64,000 bases of DNA, taken from Asterias amurensis (taxonomy: Eukaryota; Echinodermata; Asteroidea; Forcipulatida; Asteriidae). The stretch is taken from contig NC_092656.1 of NCBI RefSeq assembly GCF_032118995.1, positions 18,230,694 to 18,294,693 of the forward strand. Direction: 5' to 3'. This document shows, piece by piece, positions 1,426-38,200 of the stretch (its first letter is position 1; every line of letters begins with the position of its first letter). Both the position numbers and the translations under genes were made by a program. A model generated the notes under the pieces. The model had not been told where the DNA came from and made no database searches. It worked only from the letters and a program-made list of their open reading frames with translations.

Positions 1426-4400
1426 CAGCAAGCAGTCCACACAGACCAATCACAAAGAGAACATTGAAGACAGCTGAGCCCAAGATGGTCCCAACTCCAA
1501 TATCTCCTTTACTGATAAACACACCTGATCGATAAAAACATCGATTAATTATCGAAAAATATAAACAATTGTAATTTTAAAATTTGTGTTGAGCAAAAAA
1601 CGTGCTAAACACTGACAAAATAGTGTTAAGCAGAAACAGCTAATCAGCTAAAATTCCATAATGTTTTAATATCATTGATTGGTGCCACACTCACGTTTTG
1701 CATTACAACGAAGCTTTGTGTAATTAATTATTCAGATGAATATAAATCATTGACTATGTCTTCGTAATATAATTTAATGCACAACCAGTTTATGTTGATA
1801 CTGGAACAAGGCTGTTCGGGTTAAAATTGTTATCTTAAGATACGTCATAAGATATTTCTTGAAGTGTCTTACCAATGACAGATGTAAATAGCTCTGGGGC
1901 TGATCCTCCAATAGCCATAAAAGTTGCTCCCGCGACATCCTCGGATAGATTAAGAACTAAGAAATAAAACAATCAAAGTGGAATGATAAAAAAAGGTAAA
2001 CAAAGGTGGCAATATTGACAACTAAAGGACTAGTCGACAAATTATATTGATTGAAAATGTTTAATTATAATGCGGTGTAATGTTCACTATGGCGTACATT
2101 CTATTACTATAGAGATATCCGTAGAGATATGTATTAAATATATGTATATATATCTTTTGATATTATCTCAACGGGAATTGTTTACTTTGTACGTACAATA
2201 AGTGCGATATCTCTCTTAGATTAAAATGTCAACATCCATAGTTCACACCTTACCACACAGAGTGGAGGTCGCGCAGTAACAATAATCCATCATCTATATG
2301 CTTGAAACCTACCTGAACATATGATTTCCAATGCAGGCATGAAGTAACTGTCACATACAATTGCAAGTGCGCCAAAAATATAAACGACTGCAATAACGTT
2401 TATAGACAAGGCGCCTCGACGAAGTGAGTCTACGCTGAATAATCCGGAGGGAAAGTTGTCAATAGAAGGTGTTGTACAATTGTCTATCAACTCCAAACTG
2501 TCATCTGTTACTGTTGGAGATGTAGATCCTATGAAAAAGATAATAACAATAGAGAAATAGACAATTTCAAGATTTTAGTAAATTACAAACAATGCAGTTT
2601 TTGGATTAATTGGATGTTTATACACAATTCTCAGTGTCAGTAATGATTGCGCTATATACACCCACTCACATACTATGTATTTTCAGTGCAGGTGTTTTTC
2701 ATGTGGCAGTATATCGTTGAGGTATCACGTTTTGAAACCTATCTCTTGCTCTATCATCACTCTACTATTAAATACTTCATATGACCGGTCATTCCGGCGC
2801 TTGACTCAGTTACAGCAGACATAACTAAATATTTTAAGTATGGATTTGCACCGTCGTTGATCAACACTAGAAGCAAACTAGAATTCCCCTCGAGCCACGA
2901 TTCGAGGCGAGGGACATGTTTGGACTAATTCACAAACTCATCATAATCTAGGGGCCTATGTATATACTCGTCTTCAGCAACAATATTATGCATTTATCTT
3001 TGAGACAGATGTTCCTCCTGGAGGATGGAGCCATCTTTATGTTCATCTCGTGTCTGAACGCAGACTAAGATCACCCGGGAAAAAAAAACAGTTTATATAG
3101 GTCTACCTCTACTAAATCTGTTTCCTTTAAAGAAAAATTTATATAGGGATCCAACAGCACAATCAGTGTTTTTCGGCCCGATGAAATTGACTTCTTGACT
3201 TATTAATGCGAAAAGGACTTTTACAGGACAGCTTCTCCTTTACTCATAAATGACGAGCCCGTTATTGCTACAGACAATTACAGAACCTTTTCTAATCTTT
3301 GAGTACATCTCATGTCATGATAATCAATCATGAAATGTCATTTACAAATTAAGTGTATTCGTTTTTATTCCTATTTTATTCAGACGTTGTACTGACATGA
3401 CGAGCTGACATGTCTGTCATGTCGATTTCCCTATGATCGCCTCCAGGTATATATACCCAACTCTTCAATCCATTAATTCAGCAATGATTGATGGATCAGA
3501 CAAGATTTTATTTTCTACATGCAATTTGCAAATAAATTGCATTGACCTTTGTATAGATATTTTATTCCCATGGAAATCAACGTAGACATTTAATATCAGT
3601 GCAGAAAACTCAACTATGATGAAATGTACATCTCGTTGTGCGTCTTTTTATAGTTCATGATATCGGGACAATGTTGGTGAAAAAAAACAAATAGTTTGTG
3701 ACAAGCTTTGTTAGGTGTTCGGGCCAACAGCCCGGAACACCTCTTATTTTTGTTCGTTTTTTTTTTCTTTTTAGGTGTTCGGGCCAACAGCCCGGAACAC
3801 CTCTTATTTTTGTTCGTTTTTTTTTCTTTTTAGGTGTTCAGGCCAACAGCCCGGAACACCTCTTATTTTTGTTCGTTTTTTTTCTTTTTAGGTGTTCGGG
3901 CCAACAGCCCGGAACACCTCTTATTTTTGTTTGTTTTCTTCTTTTTTTTCTTTTTAGGTGTTCGGGCCAACAGCCCGGAACACCTCTTATTTTTGTTCGT
4001 TTTTTTTTTTCTTTTTAGGTGTTCGTGCCAACAGCCCGGAACACCTCTTATTTTTGTTGTTTTTTTTTCTTTTTAGGTGTTCGGGCCAACAGCCCGGAAC
4101 ACCTCTTATTTTTAGGTGTTCGGGCAACAGCCCGAACAACTCTTTGATTTTGTTCGGTTTTTTTTTTAGGTTTTTTTTAGGTGTTCGGGCAACAGCCTGG
4201 AACACCTCTTATTTTTGTTCGTTTTTTTTTTTCTTTTTAGGTGTTCGGGCCAACAACCCGGAACACCTCTTATTTTTGTTCGTTTTTTTTTTCTTTTTAG
4301 GTGTTCGGGCCAACAGCCCGTTACACCTCTTATTTTTGTTCGTTTTTTTTTTCTTTTTAGGTGTTCGGGCCAAAAGCCCGGAACACCTCTTATTTTTGTT

Positions 4401-7400
4401 CGTTTTTTTTCTTTTTAGGTGTTCGGGCCAATAGCCCGGAACACCTCTTATTTTTGTTCGTTTTTTTTTTTCTTTTTAGGTGTTCGAGCCAACAGCCCGG
4501 AACACCTCTTATTTTTAGGTGTTTTTTTTTCTTTTTAGGTGTTCGGGCCAACAGCCCGGAACACCTCTTATTTTTGTTCGTTTTTTTTTTTTCCTTTTTA
4601 GATGTTCGGGCCAACAGCCCGGAACACCTCTTATTTTTGTTCGTTTTTTTTTTTCTTTTTAGGTGTTCGGGCCAACAGCCCGGAACACCTCTTATTTTTG
4701 TTCGTTTTTTTTTCTTTTTAGGTGTTCGGGCCAACAGCCCGGAACACCTCTTATTTTTAGGTGTTCAGGCAACAGCCCGAACAAATCTTTGATTTTGTTC
4801 GGGTTTTTTTTTTGTTTTTTTTTTAGGTGTTCGGGCAACAGCCCGAACAACTCTTTGTTATTGTTCGTTATTTTAGGTGTTCGGGCAACAGCCCGAACAA
4901 CTCTTTGTTATTGTTCGTTTTTGTTTTTTTTAGTTTTTCGTCTTCTTCTCAGAGTCGATTGTCCGCAAGGTAAAGCAAAGTTGCGAAGGTTGCATAGAGT
5001 TGAAACTTTGGATGCAGGTAGACAACGACCAGTAGATTATTCTAAAGTTGTTACGTCACGATGACGTCATCAGTTGACGAGATACACTAATTCAAAGTTT
5101 ATTATTTCAAAAAATTATAACTTTTGATCTACATGAGGGATTTTTACAATCAATACATCATCGGAAAGGGCATTAAAAACTCCGATTTTGTCTTCCGGCT
5201 CAAAAGAGAGGTTGAACATTTCAAAATTCATGTATAAAGAACTACAAAATTCCCCGATTGGTTGCGCGTAAAAGTTTTACAATTACATGTACATGTACTT
5301 TGTCACCACGTGTAAGCATGCGGTGCATTGCGGTCACCACGTGTAAGTATGCGGTGCATTGAGGAGCATAGTCACGCTCTGCACCACGTGTTGATCGTTT
5401 TAGTCTGCGTTCGAGGCGTTCTCAACATAATGTCAGTTTTTTTCAAAAGTAATTCATTAGTTTTATCTACGACCATACTGCGTTGATAACACCGGTTCTC
5501 GTCCGGTCACTGAAGTTACGCAAAATCGGGCTCAGTCAGTATTTGGATGGGAACCACTTGGCGACGGAAATTTGTATTGATTATTTTTGTATTTAATTTT
5601 TTTTCTTCCTATAAATAGCTTCGTTTTAGTCTGTTTCAAGGCGTTTTCAACAAAGATTTCCCTCCCGGTTAGTTAGTCTCTTCTCCAGTCGTCATTATGC
5701 ATAAGCTCCTAATATCCTCAACCACACAAGCTGTTTTGACAATCTATACATCATATGAAAGGGCTTTATGTACGTAGTCTGTTTTCAAGGTGTTTTCAAC
5801 AAACATTTCCCCTTTGGTTAGTTAGTCTCTTCTCCAGTCGTCATTATGCATAAGTTCCTATGTCCTCAACCACAAAAGCTTTTTTGACAAACTATACATC
5901 ATATGAGAGGGCTTACGTACGTAGTCTGTTTTCAAGGCGTTTTCAACAAACATTTCCCTTCTGGTTAGTTAGTCTCTTCTCCAGTCGCCGTTATTCATCA
6001 GTTCACGTTTCCTCAATAAAAATTTTTTTTTACAATCAATACATCATATGAAAGGGCCTCACGTATTCCACAAAAATTGGTATGTTGGTGACCTTCTGTT
6101 GACTTTTTGACCTTTTTAAACTTGAAGAGCCTGTAACATGCTTTGAAAAGGCATTATTTAAAGGCTTTTAAGTTGAAATATACACTTTTTGATGCTTTTT
6201 CCATAAAATTATTACACATCGAGAAAACTGTTTGGTTTTGAGTTCTTTGTAATTTGACGTGCTATTAACAATACTTGTTTCGTTTATTCAAACAATGACC
6301 CAACAATAGCCGAACACCTAGTGTTTGTTTCTACAAACAATATATCTAGTTTTTTTTTTTTTAGTTTTTCTTCTTCCTCTCAGAGTCGATTGTCCGCAAG
6401 TAAAACCATAGATGCGAAGCTTGCATTAAGTTGAAACTTTGCACACAGGTAGACAATAACCAGTAGATGATGCACAAGTTGTTACGTCATGATGACGTCA
6501 TCAGTTGACGAGATACACTAATTCAAAGTTTATTATTTCGAAAAATCATAACTTTTGATGTACATGAGGGATTTTTACAACCGTCTTCCGGCTCAAAAGA
6601 GAGGTTGAAAATTTCAAAATTCATGTAGAAAGAACTACAAAATTCCCCCATTGATTGCGCGTAAAGATTTTACAATTACATATACATGTACTTTGTCGCC
6701 ACGTGTAAGCATGCGGTGCATTGCGGTCACCAGGTGTAAGTATGCGGTGTAATCAGTCGTCATTATGCATAAGTTCATATGTCCTCAAACACAAAAGCTA
6801 TTTTTACAACCTATACTGTACATCATATGAAAGGGCTTTACGTACGTAGTCTGTTTTCAAGGCGTTTTCAAAAAACATTTCCCTTCCGGTTAGTTAGTCT
6901 TTCCTCTAGTCGTCATTATTCATCAGTTCACATTTCCTCAACCACAAAAGCTATTTTGACAATCTTATACATCATATGAAAGGGTACTTACGTACTTCAC
7001 AAAAATGGGTATGTTAGTGACCTTCTCTTGACCTTTTGACTTTTTTAAACCGGATGTGTCTGTACAATGTTTTGAAAAGGCACTATTTTGAAGCTTTTAG
7101 GTTGAAATGTACACTTTTTGATGCTTTACCATAAAACTATTTCAAATCGAGAAAACTGTTTGGTTTTAAATACTTTGCAATTTGACGAGCTATCAACAAC
7201 ACTTTTTTCATTGATTCAAACACTGACCCAACAATAGCCCAACACCTAGTGTTTGTTTCTACAAACACTATATCTAGTTGTTCGTTTTTTTTCTTTTTCT
7301 TCATACTTCGTCTTCTTCTTCTTCTCAGCGTCCCTTGTCCGCTAACAAAAGCGCCTTTCCAAAACTCGTATGAACTTGAAACTTCACACATAGTTAGCGA

Positions 7401-10400
7401 ATTTTCAAAGTTTATTAATTCAAAAAATCATAACTTTTGATCTATATGAGGGATTCTTACAATCAAAACATCATCGGCATCGTCTTTGGAAACTCCATAA
7501 GCGCCCCACAGACATGACCCTGATGTTGTCTTCCGGCTCAAAAGAGAGGTTGAAAATTTCAAAATTCACGTCTAAAGAACAACATAAATCCCCATTGGTA
7601 TGTGCATAAACATTGCACGTAGGCATACACACAACGTGTAGTGTATTAGCGGTGCAGCAGAGTCACGCTCCAGTGATCATCCATAGAGCGCGAAAAAGCT
7701 TCATGAAGAATAGTCTTCGTTCAAGGCGGTTAAAACATACATGCCCCTTACAGTCTTTTCTACAGTCGTCAATATTTCCTAAGTTCATATAACCTAAACT
7801 ACATAAGCTATTTTGACAATCTATACATTATATGAAAGGGCTTTACGTACTTTACAGAAATGGATATGTTGGTGAACTTTCGTTGACCTTTTGATCTGTT
7901 TAAACCGGAAGTGACTGTGAAATGATTTGAAAGGGCGTTGTTTATTGCCTTTTAGGTTGAAAAATACATCCTTTGATGCTTTACCATCACAGCATACAAG
8001 TCTGGCAAAGGTCTGGTTTAAAACAAATATTACCGATGACGTAACCAAACATACACTTTTACTAGATGACGTAATCATGTTGTTTTGACAGTTTTTGCAA
8101 TTTGAATCATTTATTACAAATCTTGAGAACAAAGCAAGGTGTAATATTTGTTTTTTAATCCAGGCTTTTACTCCCGGAAACCGAACACCTTGAGTTTGTT
8201 CACAAACTCTCAATCTCTAGTTCTTCATACTTCTTCTTCTTCTTCTTCTTCTTATCAGCGTCCCTTGTCCGCTAACAAAAGCGCCTTTCCAAAACTCGTA
8301 TGAACTTGAAACTTCACACATAGTTGGCGATTTATTAGGAGAAGAAACCGTGTGAGTTACGTCATGATGACGTCATCAATTCTTGAGTTATGAATATTCA
8401 AAGTTTATTAATTCAAAAAATCATAACTTTTGATCTACATGAGGGATTCTTACAATCGAAACATCATCGGAATCGTCATTGAAAACTCCGTAAACGCCCC
8501 ACAGACATGACCCCATTTTGATGTTGTCTTCCGGCTCAAAGGAGAGGTTGAAAATTTCAAAATTCACGTCTAAAGAACAACGTAAATCCCCATTGGTATG
8601 TGCATAAACATTGCACGTAGGCATACACACAACGTGTAGTGTATTAGCGGTGCAGCAGAGTCACGCTCCAGTGATCATCCATAGAGCGCGAAAAAGCTTC
8701 ATGAAGAATAGTCTTCGTTCAAGGCGGTTAAAACATACATGCCCCTTACAGTCTTTTCTACAGTCGTCAATATTTCCTAAGTTCATATAACCTAAACTAC
8801 ATAAGCTATTTTGACAATCTATACATTATATGAAAGGGCGTTACATACTTTACAGAAATGGATATGTTGGTGAACTTTCGTTGACCTTTTGACCTGTTTA
8901 AACCGGATGTGACTGTGAAATGATTTGAAAGGGCGTTGTTTATTGCCTTTTAGGTTGAAATATACATCCTTTGATGCTTTACCATCACAGCATACAAGTC
9001 TGGCAAAGGTCTGGTTTAAAACAAATATTACCGATGACGTCACCAAACATACACTTTTACTAGATGACGTAATCATGTTGTTTTGACAGTTTTTGCAATT
9101 TGAATCATTTATTACAAATCTTGAGAACAAAGCAAGGTGTAATATTTGTTTTTTAATCCAGGCTTTTACTCCCGAAAACCGAACACCTTGAGTTTGTTCA
9201 CAAACTCTCAATCTCTAGTTTAAATTTACTACCGTTTATTTCACTGAATAGTCTGACTGTCAGGAGCTTCTATTTGAAGTACTTACTATTATTTTCTATA
9301 AAGCACTTTTAAAGCCCCCTGGTTTTGATGGTCACAATACACTCAACCCTCTGGTTAATACAAGCAACTGCCGTTTACCACAAGTACGTTGGTCGTCAAA
9401 GCATACTGTATCAAGTCTCTTCCTAAAGTGTGGTCAGATTTAGTTGCAGGTATAATAAATAAATGAATACATTTTATGTGTTCGGGGCCGCCTGGCAAAT
9501 ACACGCATTCCTTACTGCCATTACTTTACATCATGAGGCAAAACAGCTTTAGAGTACCCAATGAGAACAGTATTTGCATCAGCATTAAAGGCGGTGGACA
9601 CTGTTGGTAATTGTCAAAGACTAGCCCTCACAGTTGGTGTATCTTAACATATGCATAAAATAACAAACCTGTGAAAATTTGAGCTCAATCGGTCATCGAA
9701 CTTGCGAGATAATAATGAAAGAAAAAAACACCCTAGTCACACGAAGTTGTGTGTGTTTAGATGGTTGATTTCGAGACCTCAAGTTTTAAATCTGAGGTCT
9801 CGAAATCAAATTCGTGGAAAATTACTTATTTCTCGAAAACTATGGCACTTCAGAGGGAGCCGTTACTCACAATGTTTTATACCATCAACCTCTCCTCATT
9901 ACTCGTCACCGAGAAAGGTTTTATGCTAATAATTATTTTGAGTAATTACCAATAGTGTCCACTGCCTTTAACACATGACACTAAGCTATTTCTAGGTGGC
10001 AACGGTTGCCAAGGAAACGCTTCAATTAAGAATGCTTCATTGGATGCATAAATATCACGGTCATAAGATACGATCGTAATATTCCTGATGTTTGAAGTGT
10101 CCCTGATCATAAAATCAGACAATTTCAAGACTCCATTTAGCAAGACTGTCTACCTGAATGAGTCAGTTCATTAAGTCTACAGTACTTGTATGCATTCTGG
10201 GTATAGGTCTACTATGAATATGTTATCAAATGGAAATGCATTGCGACGATCAATTGACACAACAACCTTTTCTTCTCTCAGAATTTGGTTTATTTCTTAT
10301 TTCTTAGATGCGTGTCTTCAATGTGTTGCAGAGAGACAGATACAAAAATAGGATTCTAAGCATGATTTGTTTTCTTAGGAAACAGACTGTAAAACATTTC

Positions 10401-21900: not shown

Positions 21901-24900
21901 CCGAGATTTTGTGTCAGAAATACTGGAAGATTTAAGATGATTGGTGTGCCATGGCAGAGTGTGAAGCATTATTATATCTTATTTGAGGTGCTTAGCGTTT
22001 AGAAACTCACCTTAAATGTCATATTTAGCAAGATGTGATCCTTCCCTTCTTTTTCTTTTAGTTGTTTTAAGTCTGCATGTAATGGACTGTCATTGTCAAC
22101 ACTGTCAGGTATAAAAAGCAAAGATACTGAATAACAAAACACAAAATCTGTAGTCGACTACTCCTAGTATGTATAACTACAGAGAACACATGAACAGCAA
22201 TTTGACTAACTCCACAAAGAAAATTGTCTGCTTACGATATAATTTTGATGTGCCAGTCATAGAGACTGTCGTTGACTAACTCTACACAGTAAATTATCTA
22301 CTTACGATCGAATTTTGATGTGCCAGTCATAAAGACTGTCGTTGACTAACTCCACAAAGAAAATTGTCTACTTACGATAGAATTTTGATGTGCCAGTCAT
22401 TCAGACTGTCGTTGACTAACCCTACACAGTAAATTATCTACTTACGATCAAATTTTGATGTGCCAGTCATAAAGACTGTCGTTGACTAACTCCACAAAGA
22501 AAATTGTCTACTTACGATAGAATTTTGATGTGCCAGTCATAAAGACTGTCGTTGACTAACTCTACACAGTGAATTGTCTACTTACGATCGAATTTTGATG
22601 TGCCAGTCATAGAGACTGTCGTTGACTAACTCCACAAAAACAATTGTCTACTTACGATAGAATTTTGATGTGCCAGTCATAGAGACTGTCGTTGACTAAC
22701 TCCACAAAGAAAATTGTCTCTTTACGATAGAATTTTGATGTGCCAGTCATAGAGACTGTCGTTGACTAACTCTACACAGTAAATTATCTACTTACGATAG
22801 AATTTTGATATGCCAGTCATAGAGACTGTCGTTGACTAAAAACTCAACACAGTAAATTATCTACTTACGATAGAATTTTGATGTGCCAGTCATAGAGACT
22901 GTCGTTGACTAACTCTACACAGTAAATTATCTACTTACGATCGAATTTTGATGTGCCAGTCATAAAGACTGTCGTTGACTAACTCCACAAAGAAAATTGT
23001 CTACTTACGATAGAATTTTGATGTGCCAGTCATAAAGACTGTCGTTGACTAACTCTACACAGTGAATTGTCTACTTACGATCGAATTTTGATGTGCCAGT
23101 CATAGAGACTGTCGTTGACTAACTCTACACAGTGAATTGTCTACTTACGATCGAATTTTGATGTGCCAGTCATAGAGACTGTCGTTGACTAACTCCACAA
23201 AAACAATTGTCTACTTACGATAGAATTTTGATGTGCCAGTCATAGAGACTGTCGTTGACTAACTCTACACAGTAAATTATCTACTTACGATAGAATTTTG
23301 ATATGCCAGTCATAGAGACTGTCGTTGACTAAAAACTCAACACAGTAAATTATCTACTTACGATAGAATTTTGATGTGCCAGTCATAGAGACTGTCGTTG
23401 ACTAACTCCACGCAGTACATTTTCTTCTTGAAAGCATCTGATCTGTAGACATCCCTTAGCTCTTTCATCAGTCTGTCTGTGGCCTGCACTGACCCTGATA
23501 CTGAGCCCTATATCAAGAATTAAACATTTTAATCAATAGTGTTAAACAATAGTTATAATCAATAGTTATAATCAGTATAATTATGAGTTGAGAATCTCAG
23601 TGCAAAAATTAGACACAACAAAAGTCACAATAACATCGCGTAATAATCCACATTTCCAAAGTACAATACTTAAAACCAATACGATAATTATGGCTGACTT
23701 GACTGTAGTTTACAAAATATGTAAAAGTACAAATAAGCTTGAATTTTACAGCTACAGCTAGGGTGAAGTGAGACCAAGGTACTGAGATTCCAAGGAAATG
23801 TACGCTGGATTGAGAAGAGACTATACTTTACCTTTAAGTAGTCTTTTCTCTGGTTGGATTTTAGACTCATACATCATTTTGCTATGAGGTACTGAGGAAC
23901 ACTAGGTGGATATTGATAACAAAGCAGCTTGAGAAGAGACTATACTTTACCTTTAAGTAGTCTCTTCTCTGGTTGGATTTTAGTCTCTCCAGTACTGCAT
24001 AGTTTTCTGCATCTATGTCCTTGTCATCTTTCTCTGTAACTGATTTACTGATTGGTAAAGAAGAAGCAACAATTAACAGAATGAACCATGCCATAACAAG
24101 AACAAAATAACACCAATGTAATAAAGAGCGATTTCATACCATAATCATCTTCAGCCTAATATTCAACAACAATATCAACAAGTTTTGACTCAATTCGTTT
24201 GACATTGTCACCACAAAAGACCCCTTGCACAACGAGCCACGCACCTTCAAGCGCCCATCCTGTTCACCATTTTGGGAGTCAATTATTTTGAGAATCATAC
24301 ACAAAGGAGTTGACTCCCAACAAGGTGGAAATGGTAGACGCGGATTGTTCAGAGGTGTGTTTCATCAAATAACAAAGTTCATGTACATGTAGCAGGAGAA
24401 TTACACCATTTTAAAAGGGCTTTCATAACATTCAATAAAGTAGAACTTGTGCTTAACTAACTAACATCAGTAAATCAGGCATGCAACTGCCCGTTGAAAA
24501 AAAAAAAAGGAAAATTTTTGCGGAGCGAGGCAGCCGAAATGCCACGGGACAGGATACCCACAATGGTACCCTAGAAAATGTTGAGGTTTATTATGCTCTT
24601 AGGTGCATTTTTAGCATGTACTAGGCTTATTTTACATGATTGTAGTTGTACACTGTTAATGCCAGGCATATATTAGGCTAAAAACAAAAAATCCGGGAAA
24701 AAAAGAAGGGAAAAAAAGAGAAAAAAAAAATGTTCTTCTTTTTTTCACGTAAAAAAAACACAAAAAAACGCGGAATTCCGCGGAAACGCGGAAGAGTTGC
24801 ATGCCTGGTAAATACAACATCAAACACAGACTACAAAATTCCTACATCAAAATGCGTTCTATTTATAGTTTACTGTGGGTGTATTAACCTACCTTGATTC

Positions 24901-32944: not shown

Positions 32945-35232
32945 TGGGTTATCTGAAGCAAAGTTAGAAAACAAAAACAGGTGTCAAACTGTGGCACTGC
33001 AGCAGTCTTTGTATGTCACCAGAACCAGAACCAGAACCAGAACCAGTCTTTGGATGTCCTATCTCAACTAAACAAAGTTAGTTGACATTGGTGTCACACT
33101 ATGGACATCTCAGCTATCTGGTGTCACACTGTGGATACAGTCTTTGGATGTCCTATCTCAACTAAGCAAAGTTAGTTGACATTGGTGTCACACTATGGAC
33201 ATCTCAGCTATCTGGTGTCACACTGTGGAAACAGTCTTTGGATGTCCTATCTCAGCTATCTCCAGCAAAGTTTGTAAACATTGGTGACGCACTAAGAACA
33301 AAGTCATTGTAACACATCTTAGCTATCTGAAACAAAGTTTTCAGACAATGGTGTCACGCTATGGACAAATTCCTTGTTTGCCACATCTCTGCTACCTGAA
33401 GCATAGTTTGGTGACGTTGGTGTTACACTGTGATCAATCTCAGCTACCTGAAGTATAGTTTGGTGACGTTGGTGTTACACTGTGATCAATCTCAGCTACC
33501 TGAAGCATAGTTTGGTGACGTTGGTGTTACACTGTGATCAATCTCAGCTACCTGAAGCATAGTTTGGTGACGTAGGTGTTACACTGTGATCAATCTCAGC
33601 CACCTGAAGTAGTTTTCTGGTGACGTTGGTGTTACACTATGATCAATCTCAGCTACCTGAAGTATAGTTTGGTGACGTTGGTGTTACACTGTGATCAATC
33701 TCAGCTACCTGAAGTGTAGTTAGGTGACGTTGGTGTTACACTGTGATCAATCTCAGCTACCTGAAGTATAGTTTGCTGGTGATGACGTTGGTGTAACACT
33801 ATGATCAATCTCAGCTACCTGAAGTATAGTTTGGTGACATTGGTGTTACACTGTGATCAATCTCAGCTACCTGAAGTGTAGTTAGGTGACGTTGGTGTTA
33901 CACTGTGATCAATCTCAGCTACCTGAAGTATAGTTTGGTGAAGTTGGTGTTACACTGTGATCAATCTCAGCTACCTGAAGCATAGTTTGGTGACGTTGGT
34001 GTTACACTGTGATCAATCTCAGCTACCTGAAGTATAGTTTTCTGGTGACGTTGGTGTTACACTATGATCAATCTCAGCTACCTGAAGTATAGTTTGGTGA
34101 CGTTGGTGTTACACTGTGATCAATCTCAGCTACCTGAAGTGTAGTTAGGTGACGTTGGTGTTACACTGTGATTAATCTCAGCTACCTGAAGCATAGTTTG
34201 GTGACGTTGGTGTTACACTGTGATCAATCTCAGCTACCTGAAGCATAGTTTGGTGACGTAGGTGTTACACTGTGATCAATCTCAGCCACCTGAAGTATAG
34301 TTTTCTGGTGACGTTGGTGTTACACTATGATCAATCTCAGCTACCTGAAGTATAGTTTGGTGACGTTGGTGTTACACTGTGATCAATCTCAGCTACCTGA
34401 AGTGTAGTTAGGTGACGTTGGTGTTACACTGTGATCAATCTCAGCTACCTGAAGTATAGTTTGCTGGTGATGACGTTGGTGTTACACTATGATCAATCTC
34501 AGCTACCTGAAGTATAGTTTGGTGACATTGGTGTTACACTGTGATCAATCTCAGCTACCTGAAGTGTAGTTAGGTGACGTTGGTGTTACACTGTGATCAA
34601 TCTCAGCTACCTGAAGTATAGTTTGGTGAAGTTGGTGTTACACTGTGATCAATCTCAGCTACCTGAAGCATAGTTTGGTGACGTTGGTGTTACACTGTGA
34701 TCAATCTCAGCTACCTGAAGTATAGTTTTCTGGTGACATTGGTGTTACACTATGATCAATCTCAGCTACCTGAAGTATAGTTTGGTGACGTTGGTGTTAC
34801 ACTGTGATCAATCTCAGCTACCTGAAGTGTAGTTAGGTGACGTTGGTGTTACACTGTGATCAACCTCAGCTACCTGAAGTATAGTTTGCTGGTGACGTTG
34901 GTGTTACACTATGATCAATCTCAGCTACCTAAAGTATAGTTTGGTGACGTCGGTGTTACACTGTGATCAATCTCAGCTACCTGAAGTGTAGTTAGGTGAC
35001 GTGGGTGTTACACTGTGATCAATCTCAGCTACCTGAAGTATAGTTTGGTGACGTTGATGTTACACTGTGATCAATCTCAGCTACCTGAAGTGTAGTTAGG
35101 TGATGTTGGTGTTACACTGTGATCAATCTCAGCTACCTGAAGTGTAGTTTGGTGACGTTGGTGTTACACTGTTACACTGTGAACATCTCAGCTATCTGAC
35201 GCAAAGTTTGTAGACAGTGGTGTAATGCTATA
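32945..35232 (-). repeat. ~52-bp minisatellite derived from the INTS14 C-terminal coding end
   Basis: From about 33385 to 35180 a 52-bp unit (core ATCTCAGCTACCTGAAG) repeats about 35 times. Diverged units extend to 32945, including a 113-bp double unit at 33050-33245. Read on the minus strand, each unit is SVTPTSPNYTSGS followed by TGA, which parallels the real INTS14 end SITPLSTNFASDS-TGA at 35188-35232. Nucleotide similarity across that 51-nt segment is plain. A 685-bp higher-order repeat is visible (unique CAGCCACCTG at 33598 and 34283). The array lies inside the predicted 3' UTR. Confidence 0.95.
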
Positions 35233-38200
35233 ATCATAACCTTTTTCCATAGCACTAGTCAGCATCTTTCCAGCATGAGTCAATTGTAATGCTGCGTCAG
35301 GATGAGCTGTCCAGGGTAAAATAGTACATTCTCTCTCTAGCATCATAGACATACCTTGGAGAAGTTCAGTCATATCAAAAGATAAGGCTGCACGACGAAG
35401 TCTATTCAACTCCTGTAAGAAAGAAAATACACAAGAAGATCCTGGTTTAAAAATAAAACACATTTCAATTATCTGAAATCTGAACTGCCCAAAATCTATC
35501 AGATGAAAATGTGTTAAATCATGGATGCAAAGGAAAATCACTAAATAAAACAAGATTTGAAACAGTATACTGAAATGAGTTAATATGACAAGTACATAAT
35601 TAACATTGTTTCAACAGTCCGTGAATGCCATTACTTTAAAGTCCAGCATACCCTGCAGGAAAATACTGAATACTAAAGCACCTTGAGTATCTCTGAGTGA
35701 TGGATAGGCGCACTATATAAAAAAACACTATTATTGTTATTATTATTATTATAATAGATTACCTTGTAGAATACTAGTGTCTTCTCTGGAAGTTTTCTTG
35801 CATAGCGAAGAATCTTTTGAATATCAGCCTTCAAGAAAAGACAAGAAAATGACTTGATTAGGGGATAAGATATAGGAATAAGAATTTTGGCTTGTCTTGT
35901 CGATGTTTTTACAGTCATTAAGAATCATATTTCAGGGCTGGATAAGTAATATGTGTATACATAAAAACCAACAGTGATGTATTAGATCAAAGGTCAACAT
36001 ACCTGTAAATTAATTGGTTTAATCCAGACAACAGGATTCTGGGAGTAACTTCTTTTCTCTTGTAACCTGACCGGAAATGGACTCTTGTTGTTGTCTTCCC
36101 CATAAGGATTATTGGCAAAAGCTGATGAAGAAAAGAAAATCAAATTCAAAGAAAATTTGAATGAATCCTACATTTTAAAGGCAGTGGACACTATTGGTAA
36201 TTACTCAAAATAATTATTGTCATAAAACCTTACTTGATTACGAGTAACGGGGAGAGGTTGATAGTATAAAACATTGTTAGAAACGGCTCCCTCTGAAGTA
36301 ATGTAGTTTTTGAGAAAGAGGTAATTTTCCACGAATTTGATTTCGAGACCTCAAGTTTAGAATTTGAGGTCTCGAAATCAAGCATCTGAAAGCACACTGC
36401 TTCGTGTGACAAGGTGTTTTTTCTTTCATTATCTCGCAACTTCGACGACCAATTGAGCTCAAATTTCCACAGGTTTGTTATTTTATGCATATGTTGAGAT
36501 ACACCAAGTGTGAAGACTGGTCTTTGACAATTACCAATAGTGTCCACCGTCTTTAAAAAAATAAGACATTTGTAATAAATGCACATCTAATCATTCAAAC
36601 ACAAACATGATCATCTCTATATTATAAACCGTTGTTGAAGTTGTTTTTTCTTTCATTGCATCTGATGAAATAGTGGTTGCTACAAAAGCTCATGCAAATA
36701 TTTATTTACTACTAGTTGGTCTTTAAAGCACTACATTTTATTCTCCTGTTTGCAATAACCTGACTAACAGGGTTACCCATCACCACTTTTCATTTTTATC
36801 TATTCAACAATATCTAAAGGCTTTAGTAACAATTAATATTATATGGATTCAGTTAGCTATTCCTCGGCTGGTCCATAGACTTACCTGTACATGGTCCTAG
36901 TAAATGAAACTTTCCAACCCATGGTATAGCATGATCACCAGGCTCAAACAATGACATCATTAAGTTGGATTTCTTCTTACTATCTGCACAGGAATGAAGC
37001 AGTCCATACCAGTTCTCCCTACAAGGAATTCAAGTTGATATCCATAGTAATTTAGATAAGGTTAAAGACAGTGGACACTATTGGTAATTGTCAAAGATTA
37101 GTCTTCACAGTTGGTGTATCTCAACATATGCAAAAAATAAAAACCTGTGCAAATTTGAGCTCAATCGGTCGTCGAAGTATGCGAGATAATAGTGAAAGAA
37201 AAAACACCATTGTCACACGAAGTTGTGTGCTTTCTGATGCTTGATTTCGAGACATCAAATTCTAAACTTGAGGTCTCGAAATCAAATTCGTGGGAAAATG
37301 ACTTCTTTCTATAAAACTACGTCACTTCAGAGGGAGCCGTTTCTCACAATGTTTTATACTATCTACCTCTCCCCATTAATTGTAACCAAGAAAGGTTTTA
37401 TGATGATAGTTACTTTGAGAAGTTACCAATAGTGTCCACTGCCTTTAAATCAACAATATTTGTTGATTTGGACATCAAGATGAGGTTTTATAATGCTTGT
37501 ATTCTTTCAACCCTACGGTAGGTCGCTGCATGTTGGAGTCTGACAGAAAGAAATGAGGCCAGGCTAGATGCAGATGCCAAAGAAAGATCCTGGGAATTGA
37601 ATGGACATATCACAAATAAGCATGTAAGAGCAACAACCAAACAGCCCCCCCCCCCTCTCAAGCATCATAAGAAAATGCAGACTGCAGTGGTTTGGTCAAC
37701 TCCAACAAATGGATACAAATCAGATCTCTAAAAGCAACTCTACATGTACAACTGGTCACCAACCCACAAGAAACACAGACGAGGTTGCCCTAGGACAAGA
37801 TGGGCAAATGTAATCCAGAGCGACCTCTCCAGACTTGGTACTGGCCGGTCTGTGGAGGAGGCAGAAGTTGCAGCTCAAGACCGGTCTATTTGGAAGCTTC
37901 TCACCAGTCAGGCAGCTGGTGCAGAAATGCATGATGCTGACTGACGATGATGAATAAAGAGTGCTTTTGCAATGTTTCAATGCAGCAAAACTCTGAGACT
38001 ATGAATAAAATACACAAGTGGAACAACTTGGTATGTATTACTTAATGTGATTCAGATGAATTAAAAATCTAATCTAAAAATTGCTAAAAATCTTGAATGA
38101 ATGACCTACCCAACATTAACGAGTGCTACAAGATTCTCCACCTTCAGGCTGCCATGTAGAAGGACACAAAATGACGGATTAGATCCCATCTCGGTTGAAG

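Follow-up and report, generated by a model that had tools for sequence, protein, structure and literature searches.

What does the spliceosome do with a donor that is followed, along its own intron, by a row of near-identical copies? The question is raised by the UBE2Q gene of the sea star Asterias amurensis, in a window of 64,000 nucleotides (nt), the whole stretch of DNA analyzed here (RefSeq assembly GCF_032118995.1, contig NC_092656.1, positions 18,230,694 to 18,294,693 of the forward strand; coordinates are counted from its first letter unless a survey locus is named). The end of one UBE2Q coding exon, together with its donor, is repeated along the following intron in a tandem array of 70-base-pair (bp) units. 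The initial annotation proposed that the spliceosome chooses among up to 17 donors there and that array length could thereby tune the fraction of productive UBE2Q mRNA. Our analysis leads to a plainer answer: the array is probably a minisatellite that took in the end of an exon and is neutral, splicing most likely takes place at the first donor, and a regulatory role, though possible, is unsupported.

An exon end and its donor in a 70-bp array

Together with the next two exons, the 146-nt exon at 23362..23507 (minus strand, as are the UBE2Q and INTS14 features below) encodes a protein that matches UBE2Q2 (1zuo, deposited under the name hypothetical protein LOC92912) with an E of 4e-75 and UBE2Q1 (2qgx) with an E of 5e-74. 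In a search for relatives in which scoring was restricted to the 7983 candidates with the most words in common, the closest named UBE2Q among the matches listed (120 of 2307) is that of Patiria miniata, with 94% identity, and the next named relatives among them come from sea urchins, hemichordates, and one crinoid. Among the matches listed in an NCKX search (120 of 4698), the best reached 63%, and none indicated a close relative. The exon ends in ...AAA ATT CTA TC|GTAAGTAG, which places the first donor, GTAAGTAG, at 23354..23361. This is consistent with the UBE2Q protein: in a comparison made at the protein level only, the resulting junction, KILS|VDNDS, is present in Patiria UBE2Q, without insertion. 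The next exon lies at 22011..22101, with its acceptor AG (22102-22103) beyond the array. Reading on in frame past the first donor gives TCG TAA, an immediate stop. The initial annotation had predicted, for any later donor, this stop and a frame change, 70 not being a multiple of 3; the stop is there, and the frame change is moot because read-through ends at once.

The array occupies 22202..23429. Tandem Repeats Finder (TRF) assigns it a period of 70, 17.5 copies, 91% matches, and a score of 1961, and a count by the minus-strand anchor GTCAACGACAG yields 17 units, with a distal partial copy besides: unit 0 corresponds to the end of the coding exon, and the other 16 are intronic. Units are spaced by 70 bp in 14 of 16 cases and by 73 bp in the other two. 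Each repeat unit starts with some 56 nt from the exon end (about 23417-23362, read by eye) and continues through the donor into the first few bases of the intron, so that the array derives from the exon end and its donor. TRF and the anchor count therefore agree with the array as it was first described, namely 16 intronic copies of the exon tail and donor, with the true exon as the most upstream unit.

The claim that nearly every intronic copy keeps a donor is also borne out. The 16 intronic donors (22228..23288) have their first bases at 23288, 23218, 23148, 23078, 23008, 22938, 22868, 22795, 22725 (GTAAAG, unit 9), 22655, 22585, 22515, 22445, 22375, 22305, and 22235 (GTAAGC, unit 16). Apart from these two deviating donors, the sequence ATC|GTAAGTAG is exact in all intronic copies (14/16), and the string ATCGTAAGTAG is exact in 15 of the 17 units when unit 0 is included. 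Moreover, the predicted energy of the duplex with U1 is the same, -7.3 kcal/mol, in 15/17 units, the first donor among them; pairing is predicted to be weaker in unit 9 (-1.9 kcal/mol) and unit 16 (-4.6 kcal/mol).

These intact donors, predicted to be as strong as the first, together with the TAA met at once from any later donor, are what could be expected of a rheostat in which U1 sits on many decoy copies, later donors are sometimes used, the stop sends the transcript to decay, and the share of productive UBE2Q mRNA depends on the length of the array. A core that varies less than the spacer, as described below, would also suit it. However, homogenization alone accounts for the intact copies, and the sequence holds no sign of later-donor use, so that genuine donor choice as a means of tuning UBE2Q is not borne out. 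We consider such a rheostat unlikely.

The differences among units tell how the array may have grown. Several units are identical (0/7, 1/8, 2/10, 3/4/11, 5/12, and 6/15), so that the duplication of a block of about seven units is probable. Coding unit 0 equals intronic unit 7 over 73 bp, at a distance of 493 bp, which means that the exon end itself joins the exchanges and suggests that coding exon ends can enter minisatellite turnover. We infer that the minisatellite was born across the exon-intron boundary, by tandem duplication of a piece that reached from ~56 nt before the exon end, through the donor, to a few bases into the intron. Slippage or unequal exchange would then have brought it to 17 units, part of this growth being a block of about seven units in which the exon end would again have been involved.

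Variation is unevenly spread along the unit. In the 14 comparable intronic units, two others shifted by a 3-bp insertion being omitted, 4/41 columns are variable in the exon core versus 6/15 in the adjoining exon-derived part (Fisher p 0.016), and 6/49 versus 7/21 over the whole unit (p 0.049), figures to be read with the units being non-independent and the column split chosen post hoc. Since the changes in the core of the intronic copies include L-to-R, Y-to-N, L-to-I, and one stop codon, coding is not maintained there. We rejected purifying selection on these copies, for which the evidence is weak, exchange with the coding copy explaining the less variable core.

A DNA search of the 491.5-Mb assembly (23 contigs), in which very common words were skipped, found the array at one locus only. 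This speaks against a mobile element, short of proof given the skipped words. An error of assembly, either in copy number or in the existence of the entire array, deserves mention because assemblies are known to be weak in tandem arrays. Contrary evidence comes from the ordered differences between units and their higher-order pattern, the several independent arrays of like type described below, and an assembly of 23 contigs for 491 Mb, all of which make an artifact very unlikely.

Splice-site arrays in other genes

To place the UBE2Q array in context, we used a survey of 80 exon loci from three Pfam families, in which each locus was searched against itself for duplications no more than 700 bp apart. 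It comprised 40 kinase regions (of 136 matches), 20 helicase regions (of 84), and 20 AAA regions that correspond to 21 of 22 matches. The kinase and helicase regions were picked by hand, mainly short ones, and flanks of 2000, 500, or 300 bases, differing by set, affect what could be detected. In the AAA set, two regions come from a single gene, two overlap slightly, and one match (L100) spans an intron. Another 30 kinase loci, mostly long exons (L004-L033), as well as L002-L003, were inspected and left out of the count.

A splice junction lies inside a local duplication in at least 5/80 loci: 3/40 in the kinase set (L039, L055, and L071), 2/20 in the helicase set (L076 and L093), and 0/20 in the AAA set. 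This is a lower bound because, in the kinase set, only duplications within 30 bases of the domain match were compared with real exon edges.

Donors are repeated in two of these loci. In L055, whose best match is ribosomal S6 kinase alpha-3 (3ubd), hence an RSK-like kinase, the exon ends in ATG|GTAAGTG, and donors recur every 41 bp without deviation, 20 in all and 18/20 of them exact (L055 500-1183 and L094 1-284, on G000 C14 at about 20197805-20198630). U1 pairing is predicted to be the same for the first donor as for nearly all copies, and in-frame reading beyond the first donor stops 15 codons on. In the CDK11-like kinase L039 (minus strand, about 1440-2100 and 2444-2805; C18 about 4341200-4341870), an exon-tail motif occurs five times, exon included, in ~120-bp units, two of which have a matching donor; the first donor, GTACGA, is predicted to pair less well with U1 (-5.6) than the second, GTAAGA (-9.5). 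The same locus repeats the donor GGTAAGCC of an apparent preceding exon six times in 64-bp units, an array that lies outside the matched exon and was not counted.

The other three loci repeat acceptors. In the kinase L071, 18 acceptor-like TTTCTTTCAG copies directly precede the real acceptor (L071 1-505 and L095 about 880-1000; C19 about 3732650-3733300). The acceptor and exon start are found twice in L076 (minus strand, about 447-756) and four times in L093 (1-327). By eye, the unit of the L071 array is free of stop codons, and its inclusion would lengthen the protein or shift the frame.

Three further duplications were left uncounted. A 47-bp x 13 array with TTCTAACCCCTTG (or TTCTTACCCCTTG) in the kinase L051 (2198-2808) ends just short of the acceptor AG; it has a branch-point-like TTCTAAC and CCCCTTG, and its copies have TAA in place of the CAG found at the real site. 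In L046, a 33-bp copy within the exon falls short of the junction. The AAA ATPase locus L102 (294-680) holds a whole-exon duplicate, 170 bp at 73% identity and seemingly with its own acceptor and donor; this is likely a true tandem exon duplication and a candidate pair of mutually exclusive exons.

In UBE2Q, splicing at the first donor is most likely, because either exon definition or 5'-to-3' choice would favor the donor nearest the upstream acceptor. This donor would be joined to the exon at 22101, and the other 16 would be passive. If the first donor is the one used, then position and not strength decides, since predicted U1 pairing is equal along the UBE2Q and RSK-like rows and the first donor is the weaker one in CDK11. 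In UBE2Q and in the RSK-like gene, where reading past it meets a stop, the exon-proximal donor also preserves the protein.

Rows of many identical and strong predicted U1 sites, seen in UBE2Q and, with 20 donors, in the RSK-like gene, might instead help the authentic donor, by raising local U1 occupancy and thereby supporting exon definition or blocking premature intronic polyadenylation. However, the acceptor-type arrays and the stop-codon array of INTS14 (see below) in the same genome are of other kinds, and a general purpose of binding U1 therefore does not cover the set of arrays. We regard such a helping role as quite improbable.

How often would a splice junction fall in a duplication by chance? 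Of 500 random noncoding points drawn in 20 longer kinase loci, 39 (7.8%; locus bootstrap 3.2-12.8%) are inside a local duplication, as are 40/436 and 44/438 points when wider windows are used. The whole 64-kb window, coding sequence and arrays included, gives 67/500. For splice junctions, the figure is 5/160 edges (3.1%, 95% interval 1.0-7.1%), a nominal number of edges at two per locus. We therefore rejected the idea that arrays arise preferentially at splice sites, there being no enrichment (5/160 edges versus 39/500 noncoding points). In this sample, edges are hit at about the background rate or somewhat below it, and arrays are thus not drawn to them.

Since arrays cover splice sites in unrelated genes at a frequency no higher than background, passive minisatellites fit better than a device specific to UBE2Q. 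The same comparison further lowers the standing of the decoy rheostat. Two observations weigh against neutrality. Lower variability of the core is not predicted by a neutral array without exchange with the coding copy, which is weak evidence. Moreover, edges in duplications are rarer than background (naive binomial p 0.026, to be weighed against the background bootstrap of 3.2 to 12.8%), which hints at selection against such arrays. We nevertheless retain the neutral minisatellite as the probable explanation. A regulatory role for the UBE2Q array is possible but, as far as the sequence goes, unsupported.

Known repeats at splice sites

The human gene for coagulation factor VII, F7, carries a minisatellite of about 5-8 units, and one of its later repeats holds a cryptic donor. 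A passage of PMC6627357, which also implies this location, describes several 37-bp repeats in intron 7 of F7, with the authentic 5' splice site in the first of them; normal splicing relies on the most upstream donor alone, and when it is mutated a downstream intronic cryptic donor becomes active and gives a non-functional transcript. The first UBE2Q repeat likewise spans the exon-intron border and includes the authentic donor, and its downstream repeats carry donor-like sites, 14/16 with exact ATCGTAAGTAG. The two arrays differ in unit length (37 bp versus 70 bp), UBE2Q having 17 units, and belong to different genes in different phyla. Furthermore, first-donor use is reported in that F7 passage, whereas in UBE2Q we infer it, consistently with the junction in the Patiria protein. 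The reported use of only the most upstream F7 donor also counts against the decoy rheostat.

Ordinary intronic and subtelomeric minisatellites have similar unit lengths, a homogenized core, degenerate edges, and higher-order blocks. The UBE2Q array differs from them in that coding sequence and a functional splice junction form part of its unit. In tandem or mutually exclusive exon duplication, exon sequence is also repeated in tandem, but each copy needs an acceptor, an exon body, and a donor. The UBE2Q unit starts ~56 nt before the exon end and is without the acceptor of the exon (23508-23509), which led us to reject tandem exon duplication. We likewise rejected a 30-nt in-frame micro-exon in each unit, with the acceptor GACAG and the donor GTAAGT, as it would entail 40-nt introns and a poor pyrimidine tract (judged by eye).

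Intron gain by tandem genomic duplication, in which the duplication touches splice signals, is the subject of PMC4974935. In contrast to that process, UBE2Q has no new intron within a former exon: the duplicated segment is inside an existing intron, the copies are intronic, and the protein is continuous with that of Patiria over KILS|VDNDS. A limited, title-level literature search found no title on splice-site arrays in echinoderms.

Artificial constructs have been used to study how the spliceosome chooses between identical donors. Human F7, on the evidence of the passage above, is an earlier studied case of such a choice. The kind of array is thus already known from F7, to which our analysis adds a long example and evidence that donor- and acceptor-type arrays recur in a sea-star genome. 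This genome offers a natural series, in which real exons are flanked by rows of acceptors or by rows of near-identical donors, 2 to 20 in number, and which allows first-donor choice to be tested over many genes. It is improbable that length-variable splice-site arrays across the genome (UBE2Q, RSK, CDK11, and others) form a layer of gene control. If they did, copy number would shift the balance between productive and decayed mRNA and provide heritable, fast-mutating expression settings in many genes.

Other duplications in the window

The preceding UBE2Q exon has a duplicated end as well. The reference copy of this exon end and its donor, AAG|GTAAAG, is at 23929..23987, at the same place in the Patiria protein, and a 59-bp intronic duplicate with 96.6% identity lies 119 bp downstream, at 23810..23868.

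In INTS14, the duplicated segment is the end of the coding sequence. The last coding exon, with its TGA stop, is at 35188..35412 (PF20504, E 1.6e-27; 6sn1). It is followed by a 52-bp x 33.9 array (33385..35172) that resembles the C-terminal codons and stop; the INTS14 end aligns to the 52-bp unit with a score of 38, the maximum in 300 shuffles being 24. Degenerate distal repeats at 33018..33377 include INTS14-derived copies of the unit (best score 49, no shuffle). Within this 3' region (33018-35230), a degenerate distal copy is closer to the coding end than the core copies are.

Two more repeats are found elsewhere in the window. An array of about 61-bp x 18 at 3706-4919 has a near-palindromic core, GGTGTTCGGGCCAACAGCCCGGAACACC, in which hairpins look possible by eye. 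At 5588-9220, a 147-bp repeat is nested inside a larger one, whose period is about 900 bp to 1.2 kb.
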